Positions 17,096 to 52,177 of a stretch of 64,000 bases of DNA are shown one piece after another. A model generated the notes under the pieces. That model ran no database searches, had not been told where the DNA came from, and saw nothing but the letters and a program-made list of their open reading frames with translations. Where the stretch lies: the NCBI RefSeq assembly GCF_000714435.1, contig NZ_JJMW01000041.1, forward strand, positions 186,001 to 250,000. The letters run 5' to 3'. Positions within the stretch are counted from its first letter, which is position 1; each line of letters starts with the position of its first letter. Source of the stretch: Exiguobacterium alkaliphilum 12/1 (GTDB lineage: Bacteria > Bacillota > Bacilli > Exiguobacteriales > Exiguobacteriaceae). The position numbers and the translations under genes are program-made.

Positions 17096-17109
17096 AAAGC
17101 GGTCTTTTT
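17085..17109 (+). terminator. Terminator of the diguanylate cyclase gene
   Basis: GACCGCT, GAAA loop, AGCGGTC, then five T. The stop codon lies in the stem. Confidence 0.9.
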
Positions 17110-17136
17110 CACGTGAAACATACCATTTTTAGATTA

Positions 17137-47165: not shown

Positions 47166-47291
47166 CGCTTTTGTGATGAATGATAAGAGTTAAGTACGGA
47201 ATTCTTTAATTTGATTCCTGCTTAATTCTACATGACGAATAGGAATGATATGATTGACGTAATTGAAGAATAAATAGAGTGGGGCGATTTG

Positions 47292-47702
47292 ATGAAAAAG
47301 ACGGTAAAAGTTGTGGCAGCGGTGATTGAAAATCAAAATAAAGAAATCCTTTGCGCCCTTCGCTCAACAAATATGTTGATCCCGAACATGTGGGAGTTTC
47401 CTGGTGGAAAAGTTGAAGACGGCGAAAATTTGCAAGAAGCACTTGAACGCGAGATTTTCGAAGAATTAGCATGTGAAATCAAGGCGCACGAAGTGATTAA
47501 TGAACATGTACATGAATATGACACGTTCATCATTCAATTGATTTCATTGCGTGCCGAGTTGCAATCAGGAACGCCTGTTGCGACAGAACACGATGCGTTA
47601 ATTTGGCTGAAACGTGAAAACTTGCATTCACTTGTTTGGGCTCCTGCAGACATCCCAGCGGTCAATGATGTCATCAACCAAAAAACGAAAGCCGAGACGT
47701 GA
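47292..47702 (+). CDS. mutT: MutT-type Nudix (deoxy)nucleoside triphosphate pyrophosphohydrolase
   Basis: A 136-residue Nudix hydrolase. The Nudix box begins GGKVEDGENLQEALEREIFE at about 38 and continues EELACE, a full match to GX5EX7REUXEEXGU except the last Gly. The N-terminus KVVAAVIENQNKEILCALRS is typical of MutT enzymes that clean 8-oxo-dGTP or other altered nucleotides from the pool. ATG 47292 lies behind GGGG. It converges on the PLD-helicase gene through a shared terminator; Nudix genes often neighbour DUF3427 helicases, so the pair may work together. Its AT-richness equals that of the helicase. Confidence 0.85.
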   Translation: MKKTVKVVAAVIENQNKEILCALRSTNMLIPNMWEFPGGKVEDGENLQEALEREIFEELACEIKAHEVINEHVHEYDTFIIQLISLRAELQSGTPVATEHDALIWLKRENLHSLVWAPADIPAVNDVINQKTKAET

Positions 47703-47722
47703 GTTTACACGTACTCGGCTTT
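47688..47722. terminator. Bidirectional terminator between mutT and the helicase gene
   Basis: AAAGCCGAG-CGTG and CACG-CTCGGCTTT arms with one mismatch; both flanks are A/T rich. Confidence 0.88.
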
Positions 47723-47724
47723 CA

Positions 47725-50604
47725 TTAATGTGTCTGTTCGTGTAAGTAGTCGTAGATTTGTTGATCAACACGTTCTTGGAGAAGTAGATTCATCGTAACA
47801 ACAGACAATTCTTGTCTGTCTTGACTCATCATAGTCGTATCTCGTACGGATTCAAGATCCGGTGTAACTTCTCCTAAATAGTAGAAGTCTCCACCTTCAT
47901 CGTCATCTTTTTTCACAAAAAGATGAATATCGATGTTTCTTTCCTTCGATTTTATAATCTTTTGTACTTCCTCCGATTTAGTTGTTCTTCTGCTTCGTGT
48001 GTACCAATGAAATACTTCAGGATTAATAAACGCATCGCCATAATTCACACTGGCCTCCACATCTTCGCCTTTATGGTAAGTTACAAAGATTGGACATGTT
48101 TGATGCTTAATCTTATAGCCATACATCGTTGACTGTTCTTCTTTGTCCCAATTTAGTAAGCGACAAGCGTCTTTCCTCGTGTATTTTTCAAGTCTCGTTA
48201 ATGGTTTTGTCTGATCATATCGTTGACCTCTAGCTAAGGAAGCTGTTAACACATCATTAAACAGTTGAGTGAACCATTCATCTTTTAATAAAAACTGCAT
48301 ATGAGATGAAAATCTATACTCTTCATTTTCCCAAGAAATTAGGGAATGCCCTCCATATTTTAATTGATCCGCGTCTTTAAAAAAGTTTAGTGATAGTACG
48401 TTTTCTAAAGATTGAATGGTAGCTTTATCACTTCTTATTCCCTGCTCACGCAAGCGATAAATAAAGTCCTCTTTGCTTAAACTTTCTTGCTCCAACAGAA
48501 GTTCCATTAACAACACTTCATGTACTCGTTTTCCTGACAATAACTCTTGAGTCACCATCAACAGAACTTTTGAGTGCGCGGAAGAAAGGTCAGGAAGATC
48601 GTGCTCCACTATATTTAAAAAGGCACCGTAATGACCCTTCTTTGTTCCAATAACAATGGGATCCATTGAATAATGTGCCACAAAATCGCTTAACATCGGA
48701 GGTCGTCCTAAACGGTTTTTTAAATTGTGATAGGCTTCTTTTAAAACCTTTAAGTCAGTTAGTTTTGCTTGATTAATCGATTCGTAAATTCGTTCTTTTG
48801 CGATGGCTTCAAAGTTAATGGTCGACGTGCCAGAAATATAGCTACGATCAATTACTTTTCTCCGAATCGAATCTTTGTTTTGAGAGCGGTCTCCGGATAA
48901 AGCGATTGGAATCAAATAGTTATTTTTGTAGTTAGCGATGAAATCGATAACGGTCACGTATTGTTTTGAGCTGTGTTTTCTTAATCCTCGTCCTAGTTGT
49001 TGAATAAAAATAATGCTTGATTCTGTCTGTCGCAACATGACGACTTGATTAATGCTTGGAATATCAATTCCTTCGTTGAATATATCAACTGTTAAAATGT
49101 AATCTAGACGACCCTCTTCCAAATTAGTCACTTCAACTCGTCTCTTTTCTTGCGAATCATCCCCCGTTAAAGCACATGTCCGAAAACCTCGATGATTCAA
49201 TTCCTCAGAAAGTCGTTTCGCTTCTCGTTTTGAACTACAGAACATCAAACCACATAAACGCTCTCCAGAAAAACCATAGTAATCAATCTTCTCGATAATT
49301 CGTTCTACACGTTCCTCTGACACGAGCTGAGTGAATACATCAAATTCAACTTGATTTCCACTCACTTCAAGATCTGTCACTCCAAAATAGTGAAACGGGC
49401 ATAACATATCTTCTTCAAGCGCTTCTTGTAACCGAATCTCATATGCAATGTTGTAATTAAACAACTTAAATAAATCATATCCGTCTGAACGTTCAGGAGT
49501 TGCTGTCATTCCTAATAAAAATTGTGGTTTAAAATGTTCTATAATTCGTTGATATGTAACCGCTCCTGCTCGATGACTCTCATCAATCAATACGTAGTCA
49601 AATGCGCCTCGGTCAAACTGATCTAATGTTTCTTGTTTAGAAATTGTTTGGATCGTTGCAAAGACATATCTAGCCCCCATTGCTCGACTCGAACCTGAAA
49701 GGATACCAAAATCAGCTTCATCCCCACCAATGACTCGATGAAAATCATTCTTTGCTTTTTGCAAAATCTGTTCGCGATGCACTACGAATAGCATTCGCTT
49801 CGGTCGATAACGACGAACGTCAAACGCGGCTAAATATGTTTTTCCGGTGCCCGTCGCTGATACGACAAGCGCTCTTGTATTTCCGTGCGCACGAACGGCC
49901 TCAATTCCACTTAAAGCTGCTAGTTGCATCGAATTAGGTTCTACTTGTAACGCTTCTTTTAATCGATTTACTCCATACGAGTCTGGAAACTCAGCTACAC
50001 GTTCTCCAAAGACTGGACGATACGAACGTTCGTAAGCTGAAATCCATTCAAGTGTCAATGGAACTGAAACACTCCACATTTCTTCAAACTGATCGAGGAA
50101 GTGTCCGACAATTTCTCCATTCTCGTGAGAGGTCAACTTCAGATTCCACTCGTAATTTGTCTTTAACGCTCCAGACGTCAAATTAGAGCTTCCAACAATT
50201 AATGAGTAGTACTCTTCGTGTTGAAAAATGTATCCCTTAGAGTGGAATGCCTCAACTTCTGAAATGCGAATATCTACATTCTTCAGTTTTAATAGTTCTT
50301 TAAAGACTTTAGGTTGATTAAAGTATTGGTACGTTGAGGTCATGATTTTTCCACGGATACCTTTGTCATGTAAGTCGGAAAGCGTAGATTTTAACGTAGC
50401 TAAGCCAGCTTCCGTAATAAACGCAACAGAAAATAAGAAAGATTGGCATCCCTTTAGTTCGTCTAGAAGCGAAGTGAGTACATCTTGTCGTTTATGTTTT
50501 TCATTCATTAATAACTCAGGTTTAAATGGACTCACGTGATGATGATGCTTATCAATAAATCCCTTTTCTAACGAATTTTTGAGTTGTTCTGTAAAATGAG
50601 TCAT
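47725..50604 (-). CDS. PLD nuclease - DEAD/DEAH helicase - DUF3427 protein (defence candidate)
   Basis: A 959-residue protein, AT-rich for this region. A phospholipase-D-like nuclease domain (about 30-180) has HSKGYIF (His121, Lys123) and GSSNLTSGAL. A superfamily 2 helicase follows: Walker A ATGTGKT at 250-256, DESH at 341-344, TATPERSD at 367, and motif VI QQLGRGLRKH near 540. The last 320 residues fit DUF3427. This layout is known from defence islands and is thought to act on foreign nucleic acid. ATG 50604 follows TGGAGGT. Only one PLD HxK motif is present, so it probably acts as a dimer. Confidence 0.88.
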   Translation of the reverse strand: MTHFTEQLKNSLEKGFIDKHHHHVSPFKPELLMNEKHKRQDVLTSLLDELKGCQSFLFSVAFITEAGLATLKSTLSDLHDKGIRGKIMTSTYQYFNQPKVFKELLKLKNVDIRISEVEAFHSKGYIFQHEEYYSLIVGSSNLTSGALKTNYEWNLKLTSHENGEIVGHFLDQFEEMWSVSVPLTLEWISAYERSYRPVFGERVAEFPDSYGVNRLKEALQVEPNSMQLAALSGIEAVRAHGNTRALVVSATGTGKTYLAAFDVRRYRPKRMLFVVHREQILQKAKNDFHRVIGGDEADFGILSGSSRAMGARYVFATIQTISKQETLDQFDRGAFDYVLIDESHRAGAVTYQRIIEHFKPQFLLGMTATPERSDGYDLFKLFNYNIAYEIRLQEALEEDMLCPFHYFGVTDLEVSGNQVEFDVFTQLVSEERVERIIEKIDYYGFSGERLCGLMFCSSKREAKRLSEELNHRGFRTCALTGDDSQEKRRVEVTNLEEGRLDYILTVDIFNEGIDIPSINQVVMLRQTESSIIFIQQLGRGLRKHSSKQYVTVIDFIANYKNNYLIPIALSGDRSQNKDSIRRKVIDRSYISGTSTINFEAIAKERIYESINQAKLTDLKVLKEAYHNLKNRLGRPPMLSDFVAHYSMDPIVIGTKKGHYGAFLNIVEHDLPDLSSAHSKVLLMVTQELLSGKRVHEVLLMELLLEQESLSKEDFIYRLREQGIRSDKATIQSLENVLSLNFFKDADQLKYGGHSLISWENEEYRFSSHMQFLLKDEWFTQLFNDVLTASLARGQRYDQTKPLTRLEKYTRKDACRLLNWDKEEQSTMYGYKIKHQTCPIFVTYHKGEDVEASVNYGDAFINPEVFHWYTRSRRTTKSEEVQKIIKSKERNIDIHLFVKKDDDEGGDFYYLGEVTPDLESVRDTTMMSQDRQELSVVTMNLLLQERVDQQIYDYLHEQTH

Positions 50605-50715
50605 ATGTACCTCCAACATGATTTATACTAAATTCAAATAATTTCAATACCAGTATTTTATTTTACATATATTTCATTATTATCTTCTGCATAAAAATGA
50701 TCAAGGAGGAACTCC

Positions 50716-51267
50716 ATGTCTACGTTCTATCTCATCCGCCATTGCTCGGCCACCGGTCAAGAACCGGACGCCCGACTCACCGAGGCCGGCGCACAACAAG
50801 CCCTCGCTCTCGCTGACTTCTTTCAAGACATCCCTGTCGACCGCATCATCTCGAGCGATTATACGCGAGCTACTGCCTCGATCGCACCACTCGCCACATC
50901 CAAGCAACTGACCATCGAGACGGAGCCGAAGTTGCGCGAACGCATCCTCTCGCTCGAACCGCGCGACGATTGGTTTGACTTGCTCCGTCACTCGTTCGAG
51001 GATGCCTCATTCGCCTTACCCGGTGCCGAGTCAGGTCAAGATGCGACGGAGCGGATTTTGAGTGTCATCGATTCACTCGACGACGTAAACGGCACGACCG
51101 TCCTCGTGACGCATGGCAATCTGCTCGCGCTCCTCCTCCAACATGTGGATAACCGCTTCGACTTCGACACGTGGCACACGCTCAGCAATCCTGACGTCTA
51201 TTTTCTAAAAATTGTGGATAACTCTTGGGCGGTCGAACGCGTCTGGTCCGTCCGTAGCTGTGGATAA
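50716..51267 (+). CDS. Histidine phosphatase-family protein
   Basis: A 183-residue member of the phosphoglycerate-mutase-like superfamily. The phospho-His is in LIRHCSATG near residue 9; the usual RHG motif is RHC here. Further active-site parts are SSDYTRATAS near 47, KLRERILS and the second His in VLVTHGNLLALL near 135. It is likely a small-molecule phosphatase of unknown substrate. ATG follows AAGGAGG. Its 3' end carries three of four clustered DnaA boxes; one covers the stop codon. Confidence 0.87.
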   Translation: MSTFYLIRHCSATGQEPDARLTEAGAQQALALADFFQDIPVDRIISSDYTRATASIAPLATSKQLTIETEPKLRERILSLEPRDDWFDLLRHSFEDASFALPGAESGQDATERILSVIDSLDDVNGTTVLVTHGNLLALLLQHVDNRFDFDTWHTLSNPDVYFLKIVDNSWAVERVWSVRSCG

Positions 51268-51278
51268 CGTTATCCACA
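51144..51278. promoter_or_regulatory. Cluster of four perfect DnaA boxes
   Basis: TGTGGATAA occurs at 51144-51152, 51213-51221 and 51259-51267, and its complement TTATCCACA at 51270-51278. All four equal the consensus DnaA box. The last two form a head-to-head palindrome over the stop codon of the phosphatase gene. No origin-like AT-rich unwinding element or dnaA/dnaN gene is nearby, so a DnaA-titrating or regulatory cluster is more likely than an origin. Confidence 0.75.
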
Positions 51279-51306
51279 GAAAAAGCCGCCTCGACTGAGA
51301 CGGCTT
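51279..51306 (-). terminator. Terminator of the DegV-family gene
   Basis: AAGCCGTCTC and GAGGCGGCTT arms (one mismatch) with four-base loop, then TTTC on the minus strand. Confidence 0.82.
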
Positions 51307-51313
51307 GCGTATC

Positions 51314-52177
51314 TTACTTTTCCACGAAGAACATCGAGATGGCGCCGAGCCCGACGTGCGTCCCGACCGAGACACCCATCTGCATGAGGTAAATCTCCCC
51401 ATCAAAGTCTGTCTCCGCCTCGATTTTCGCTTTTAAATTCTCGGCAATCTTCTGATCTGACGTATAGCCGATGATGATGAAATTCGTGATGTCGCGATCA
51501 CAACGTTTCACGAACTGTTCGGTGTAATGCTTGAGCACTTTGCGCGTGCCGCGTTCTTTGGCGACGACGGCACCTTTGCCGTCCTTCATGCTCATAATCG
51601 GCTTGACCATGAGTAGCTTGCCGATGATGGCGCCCGCGTTCGAGATGCGACCGCTCTTAATCAAGTGATCTAAGTCGTCGACCGACAAGAAGTGCTTCAC
51701 TTTCATCTTATATGCTTCATTGAACGCCACGAGCTCTTCGAACGTGGCCCCTGCTTCGCGCATTTGGGCACTCTTCATCAAGAGCCAACCGCTCCCGTGG
51801 CTCATCGAACGGGAGTCGACGATATGAATCTTCACCGGTGAGTCCGGATGCGCCTCCTCGAAATACTCTTTCCCGAGCACGGCCGATTGATACGATCCGC
51901 TCGTTCCGCTCGACATACAGATGCACAAAATCTCATCGTGTCCCGCCTCGACGGCGTCTTCCATCAATTTCATGAACGTGGCCGGACTCGGCATCGCCGT
52001 CGTCGGGAACTCCGGTAGCGCTTCCAACATTCCGTAAAACTCATCGGGCTGGATGTCGACGCGGTCCTCGTACGATTTGTTCTCAATCGTCACGATGAGC
52101 GGGGCGACCCCAATCTCGTATTTCGCTAAAATCTCATCTGATAAATCGCATGTTGAGTCTGCTAGTAGTTTAATCAT
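51314..52177 (-). CDS. DegV-family fatty-acid-binding protein
   Basis: A 287-residue soluble protein with the DegV fold. MIKLLADSTCDLSDEILAKY opens it, TTAMPSPATFMKL near 59 and SSGTSGSYQSA near 89 are the lipid-headgroup-binding segments, and DSRSMSHGSGWLL lies near 121. DegV/FakB proteins carry fatty acids to the kinase FakA for phospholipid synthesis. Whether this copy is FakB1- or FakB2-like is not clear. ATG follows GGAGG. A minus-strand TGATACAAT extended -10 (near 52260-52268) gives a leader of about 80 bases. Confidence 0.92.
   Translation of the reverse strand: MIKLLADSTCDLSDEILAKYEIGVAPLIVTIENKSYEDRVDIQPDEFYGMLEALPEFPTTAMPSPATFMKLMEDAVEAGHDEILCICMSSGTSGSYQSAVLGKEYFEEAHPDSPVKIHIVDSRSMSHGSGWLLMKSAQMREAGATFEELVAFNEAYKMKVKHFLSVDDLDHLIKSGRISNAGAIIGKLLMVKPIMSMKDGKGAVVAKERGTRKVLKHYTEQFVKRCDRDITNFIIIGYTSDQKIAENLKAKIEAETDFDGEIYLMQMGVSVGTHVGLGAISMFFVEK

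Follow-up and report, generated by a model that had tools for sequence, protein, structure and literature searches.

A clade-restricted cluster of four perfect DnaA boxes spanning the end of a histidine phosphatase gene near oriC in Exiguobacterium

The end of a histidine phosphatase gene in this Exiguobacterium genome (G000; 3,100,610 bp in 71 contigs) carries four perfect DnaA boxes (TTATCCACA, either strand) within 135 bp (51144-51278), and the group is best read as a lineage-specific relative of the DnaA-box clusters (DBCs) that Bacillus subtilis possesses outside oriC (Okumura et al. 2012, via PMC5295017, PMC13220808, and PMC4447404). The window, that is, the whole 64-kb stretch of DNA that was analysed, corresponds to G000:C41:186001-250000. 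A first-pass annotation had described four perfect boxes where fewer than one was expected per window, a back-to-back palindrome over the stop codon, and a phosphatase gene as host, and each of these observations is confirmed (Table 1). The scan of the whole 64 kb found no further perfect TTATCCACA box outside 51144-51278, while the chance expectation for the window is 0.14, and none of 100 shuffles contained four boxes. When one mismatch was allowed, TTATNCACA gave 31 matches in the window against 26.5 expected, i.e., no general excess, so the signal is a cluster of perfect boxes and not a box-rich region.

Table 1. Features of the four-box cluster, its surroundings, and related sites. Positions refer to the 64-kb window unless prefixed by C41, the contig of G000; "clade" denotes the twelve box-bearing genomes.
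Feature	Position	Strand	Remarks
Histidine phosphatase superfamily (branch 1) protein, 183 aa	50716-51267	+	PF00300, E 4e-24
DnaA box 1	51144-51152	-	in phosphatase ORF; codons GTG GAT AA (V-D-N); perfect in 10/12 clade genomes; has one mismatch in G017 and is merged with box 2 in G015
DnaA box 2	51213-51221	-	in phosphatase ORF; likewise V-D-N codons; perfect in 12/12 clade genomes (fused box 1/2 of G015 included)
DnaA box 3	51259-51267	-	contains TAA stop of phosphatase ORF; perfect in 12/12 clade genomes
DnaA box 4	51270-51278	+	non-coding; back to back with box 3; perfect in 12/12 clade genomes
Perfect palindrome, 22 bp	51258-51279	strandless	formed by boxes 3 and 4; core TGTGGATAANNTTATCCACA
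Intrinsic-terminator-like stem-loop	51283-51306	-	3' end of convergent degV; directly adjoins box 4
DegV-family protein	51314-52177	-	convergent neighbour; TIGR00762 above cut-off
dnaA	C41:283943-285319		gene for the host DnaA
Second cluster	C41:257058-257291 (L053:7058-7291)		between rlmH and htrA-type gene; 2 perfect and 5 one-mismatch boxes
Third cluster	C41:96326-96405 (L052:9926-10005)		about 187 kb from oriC; 2 perfect and 2 one-mismatch boxes

The phosphatase ORF closes with a TAA stop that makes up the final three bases of box 3, and every NCBIfam match of the encoded protein lies below its cut-off. Box 4 is located within the 46-bp gap separating the phosphatase from the convergent degV, and the cluster is located between two convergent 3' ends. 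The palindrome was also considered as a terminator hairpin, and this was rejected: the terminator-like stem is a distinct structure next to it, and a T-tailed stem was not among the scan's results for the palindrome. The degV stem itself is visible in aligned box-bearing and box-less species alike. Neither a promoter-like site nor a parS was found at the cluster in the scans of the window. As a separate observation, the only parS-like palindrome in the window (17105-17120), about 81 kb from dnaA, has one mismatch to what we take to be the ParB-site consensus.

Genome-wide, 26 perfect boxes were counted in the 3,100,610 bp, against three for a reversed-pattern control. Half of them (13/26) are located at oriC on both sides of dnaA, where the box groups (C41:283429-285528) are arranged as in a bipartite oriC. 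The perfect boxes outside oriC comprise the four of the cluster, two beside rlmH, two at a third cluster, and five singles. The four-box cluster thus holds the most perfect boxes of any group outside oriC in G000, although the rlmH cluster has more sites (seven) once one mismatch is allowed. In G000, none of the eight perfect boxes that form clusters outside oriC is more than 190 kb from dnaA, and the four-box cluster is 46.7 kb away from it. Among the twelve box-bearing genomes, ten have cluster and dnaA on one contig, at a distance of 46.7-65.0 kb (the contigs of G002 and G007 being taken as circular); G006 and G015 carry them on different contigs. An origin-proximal location, as known for B. 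subtilis-type DBCs, was therefore found in 10/12 genomes. However, the box-less phosphatase locus of five sister genomes sits similarly far from dnaA (54-64 kb), so that synteny alone explains the position, and distance from oriC is unusable as evidence of selection. As to the assembly, contig C41 holds the cluster and oriC together, as in relatives. The contamination score of G000 is 7.58 percent; the five singles, which are on other contigs, may stem from other DNA.

Box scans across 19 genomes of the genus, together with a protein search across 61 genomes, found the cluster at the same place in 12 of the 19 and absent from seven. Ten of the twelve keep all four boxes at spacings of 69, 46, and 11 bp, while G017 has three perfect boxes at 46 and 11 bp beside its mismatched box 1, and G015 has three boxes with the 46- and 11-bp spacing kept. 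Orthologous loci beside degV with names numbered 7/13, all from Exiguobacterium, and six of these seven carry boxes. E. aurantiacum PN47 and E. chiriqhucha RW-2 are members of the box clade, and strain s124 is a relative lacking the boxes. In five box-less genomes, a phosphatase of 59-63 percent identity is also the neighbour of degV; the 3.5 kb examined there contain no perfect box, and the 450 bp surrounding the gene end contain none with one mismatch either. A close phosphatase homologue is missing in G001 (none at E <= 0.001) and G003 (one weak match), and the genome box listings of both contain no such group of perfect boxes.

In a tree of dnaA and rlmH with four outgroup genomes, the twelve box-bearing genomes are monophyletic, with ultrafast bootstrap values of 99 (nucleotide) and 92 (amino acid); the seven box-less genomes form the sister clade in the nucleotide tree (97) but not a clade in the amino-acid tree. 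Judged from these sequences, the cluster was most likely gained once, at the base of the twelve-genome clade. Alternatively, it may have been gained in the genus ancestor and then lost one or more times, since the outgroup phosphatase homologues showed no degV next to them and the locus may differ there. The literature pairing Exiguobacterium with DnaA yielded, at the level of titles and abstracts, no account of the cluster, and the papers returned concern other bacteria.

The boxes inside the gene allow selection on DNA to be separated from selection on protein. The codon test covered ten clade genes, G013 (stop) and G015 (gap) being left out, and 100 columns with a conserved, degenerate amino acid. 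The third base is invariant in 6/6 such columns within boxes and in 12/94 elsewhere (Fisher p 1.6e-5, with independence of the columns assumed). Outside the boxes, invariant conserved columns amount to 0/6 for Asp, 0/4 for Gly, 2/4 for Val, and 2/3 for Asn, and third-base pairwise identity averages 67 percent, while both box Asp codons are GAT in 10/10 genes. The longest invariant stretch across the ten aligned genes, 11 bp, contains box 2. The tripeptide V-D-N is present at both in-gene boxes throughout the clade, except for V-D-Y at box 1 in G017, and occurs at either position in 0/23 box-less homologues of the alignment (counted without one duplicate and one truncated row); the Asp of box 1 is common to 21 of these 23.

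Two genomes with a defective phosphatase gene bear on the same question. In G013, the ORF is interrupted by an in-frame stop at nt 357, ahead of box 1 (nt 419), and all four boxes are perfect; this early stop could be recent or a sequencing error. In G015, 69 bp are missing in frame between boxes 1 and 2, which leaves one fused box plus boxes 3 and 4, and this gene defect could likewise be recent. The ends of that gap (L021) are the two direct-repeat boxes, an apparent recombination between DnaA boxes, and a gap of 69 bp is as expected because the two 10-bp direct repeats can pair.

The invariant third bases, the clade-only V-D-N, and the perfect boxes in an early-stop gene indicate that the boxes are maintained as DNA. 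Rather than being lost while the protein is kept, the boxes are kept more strictly than the surrounding codons (10/12 genomes in the codon test). At the sequence level, the interpretation as a DnaA-box cluster is thus strongly supported, and most likely the phosphatase codons changed to hold the boxes, which would then have been held by selection on DNA.

The stricter box conservation, the persistence in G013 and G015, and the origin-near place make the comparison with B. subtilis DBCs fit. The first-pass suggestion of a B. subtilis-like cluster is thus supported in part, namely for conservation, origin-near position, and retention in a broken gene. The cluster is not a feature of the whole genus, 7/19 genomes lacking it. 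As in B. subtilis, a member of the same bacterial class, several DnaA boxes lie close together outside oriC, here above chance, and according to published accounts the B. subtilis gcp/ydiF cluster is likewise located between two convergent 3' ends. Table 1 of PMC4447404 gives 4-11 sites, by that paper's own matrix, at six strong non-oriC regions, compared with four perfect boxes here. Unlike the B. subtilis DBCs, two boxes of the present cluster lie inside a coding frame, a third holds the stop codon, and the cluster occurs in one clade only. Its neighbours (His phosphatase, degV) match, by gene name only, none of sda, ywlC, ywcI, yydA, trmE, and gcp/ydiF as named in the B. subtilis accounts. 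E. coli was likewise described to concentrate boxes near the origin (PMC12371093), though as box density over a region, in contrast to the discrete conserved four-box element found here.

Binding of DnaA is expected because the host DnaA is a TIGR00362 equivalog and the same perfect box occurs 13 times at oriC. On balance, the cluster probably serves as an origin-proximal site that binds DnaA and acts as its sink. DnaA would fill the four high-affinity boxes cooperatively; the locus would be copied soon after oriC fires, so that the competing sites double; and the doubled sites would draw free DnaA off oriC, delaying re-initiation and favouring one initiation per cycle. This mechanism is modelled on B. 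subtilis, in which deletion of six clusters was reported to cause early initiation and one reintroduced cluster to relieve it partly (PMC5295017, PMC13220808), and on the general titration model for DnaA as set out in PMC12371093 and PMC5835720. Several points count against a sink: about 10-fold overproduction of DnaA in B. subtilis was reported to give no over-initiation (PMC13220808), four sites are a small sink, and 7/19 genus genomes live without the four-box cluster, yet 19/19 have the rlmH-side one. Compensation, i.e., a distal box total that stays constant between clades, was tried and rejected, as perfect boxes numbered 7-12 in the box clade and 5-10 in box-less genomes, which is not tight enough; boxes outside oriC were counted by eye up to 250 kb from dnaA or as far as the contig reached, in the ten box-clade genomes whose cluster shares a contig with dnaA and in seven box-less genomes (G003 across two contigs).

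DnaA titration by chromosomal box clusters is a debated topic. The cluster is discrete, was apparently gained once and kept, has relatives without it, and sits in a gene with synonymous sites as a built-in control for selection, which together make it a clean place to test whether origin-proximal clusters bear on initiation outside B. subtilis and E. coli. Its unusual features are that it is embedded in a gene and recodes it, that it is restricted to a clade, and that it bears the oriC palindrome of the family.

The palindrome core TGTGGATAANNTTATCCACA also occurs at oriC (C41:283820-283839), and these two copies are the only ones in G000. A search of 200 genomes of the class for TGTGGATAANNTTATCCACA returned 18 positive ones (11 Exiguobacterium, five of the sister genus, and two others), i.e., 16/16 sampled family genomes versus 2/184 other genomes of the class. 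Fifteen of the 16 family genomes have a copy immediately upstream of dnaA, the dnaA of G023 being unmapped, and in the eight genus genomes with two copies, the second one is the four-box cluster. Moreover, the box listings contain this back-to-back box pair at oriC in 19/19 genus genomes. By eye, no homology of the cluster to oriC was seen beyond the palindrome. The shared palindrome suggests that the cluster carries the pairing geometry of the family's origin. It is conceivable, though we hold this only tentatively, that an oriC-type DnaA platform, consisting of the family oriC palindrome and two co-directional boxes, arose a single time within a coding gene, that the protein was recoded and the platform outlasted it, and that the result is a clade-specific oriC decoy with a defined geometry and not a mere count of sites. 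If true, sister clades would offer a natural with/without comparison of initiation control.

The cluster could also be a nucleotide switch for DnaA instead of a passive sink, promoting ATP hydrolysis as E. coli datA does or ADP release as DARS does through its core of DnaA boxes I-III, although we consider this unlikely. Spacing and orientation are fixed over most of the clade, which suggests a defined nucleoprotein architecture beyond mere site number, and the loss of the 1-2 spacing in G015, with 46 and 11 bp staying, may be listed on the same side. Like the cluster, datA is an origin-proximal group of DnaA boxes, copied early and thought to lower active DnaA (PMC5742627). However, datA is non-coding and is described there as needing an IHF site and co-directional essential boxes, while here boxes 1-3 are on the minus strand and box 4 is inverted; boxes 1-3 alone would follow the single-direction rule. 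In addition, B. subtilis is stated to lack IHF, datA, and DARS (PMC13220808).

An improbable alternative is that DnaA acts here as a local transcription factor or roadblock, which prevents transcription from reading through between the phosphatase and degV or adjusts the phosphatase to the state of replication. The boxes do border on the degV terminator and extend across the stop codon of the phosphatase, and in B. subtilis DnaA was reported to act as a repressor or activator of several genes where it binds (PMC4447404). Placement between convergent 3' ends, however, argues against promoter control, and, as noted above, the cluster holds no promoter-like site. The boxes begin 428 bp into the phosphatase ORF, end 11 bp beyond it, and lie about 900 bp from the degV start. 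They are also kept despite a broken phosphatase in G013 and a shortened one in G015, and box-less species have the terminator stem, too.

A second replication origin or unwinding site is very improbable: the cluster bears the oriC-type palindromic box pair, but it lacks the AT-rich unwinding element beside dnaA/dnaN that characterises oriC together with its boxes (GC 0.53 at the cluster versus 0.35-0.36 at oriC; lowest nearby 50-bp GC 0.38), and box groups flank dnaA in bipartite-oriC style 46 kb away. Equally hard to credit is selection on the protein, by which the V-D-N motifs and the C-terminus would be kept for the phosphatase and the boxes be a by-product. Boxes 1 and 2 are indeed in frame and encode the same tripeptide, but protein-driven conservation was rejected in view of the frozen box codons, the clade-only V-D-N, the equally invariant non-coding box 4, and the persistence of the boxes in the early-stop gene. 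Chance, or a repeat or mobile element that happens to contain boxes, is next to negligible: a short copy from oriC is possible, given the palindrome's two occurrences in the genome, but these are the only two, without visible flanking homology, the cluster is fixed over a clade, and besides the shuffles a rough Poisson calculation puts such a group at 4e-10 if the background density is taken from all 13 non-oriC boxes and at 1e-12 if it is taken from the reversed-pattern control, so that chance was rejected.

The second cluster is located beside rlmH, which we take to be yydA, and thereby matches the position of the B. subtilis yydA cluster. According to PMC4447404, a strong DnaA region lies upstream of yydA in B. 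subtilis. On its other side, the htrA-type gene has HtrA family matches below the cut-offs. Two perfect boxes 12 bp apart are present at this site in 19/19 genus genomes, and 4-5 perfect boxes were found in all four sister-genus genomes examined; among seven other Bacilli examined, three have 2-3 perfect boxes, one has a single box, and three have none. The rlmH and four-box clusters together suggest an older conserved cluster plus younger lineage-specific ones.

The genes beside the third cluster, read in G000 only, are a MarR/HxlR-like regulator (the HxlR naming being our assumption) and a muramoyltetrapeptide carboxypeptidase-like gene, both names resting below NCBIfam cut-offs. The cluster's pair of boxes spaced by 35 bp is listed in 18/19 genus genomes, and G001 has a single box at a possibly matching place.

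Finally, we also identified a low-GC (0.37-0.42) gene pair at 47289-50619, between mqo and the phosphatase. The first protein is NUDIX-like, a motif assignment that we presume, and is named PDC-S07 by PADLOC; the second has a PLD-helicase-DUF3427 arrangement and is called a type IV methyl-directed restriction enzyme by PADLOC. The pair is present in three of seven named relatives (L040, L042, and L044) and absent in four, and is likely a patchy defence island.
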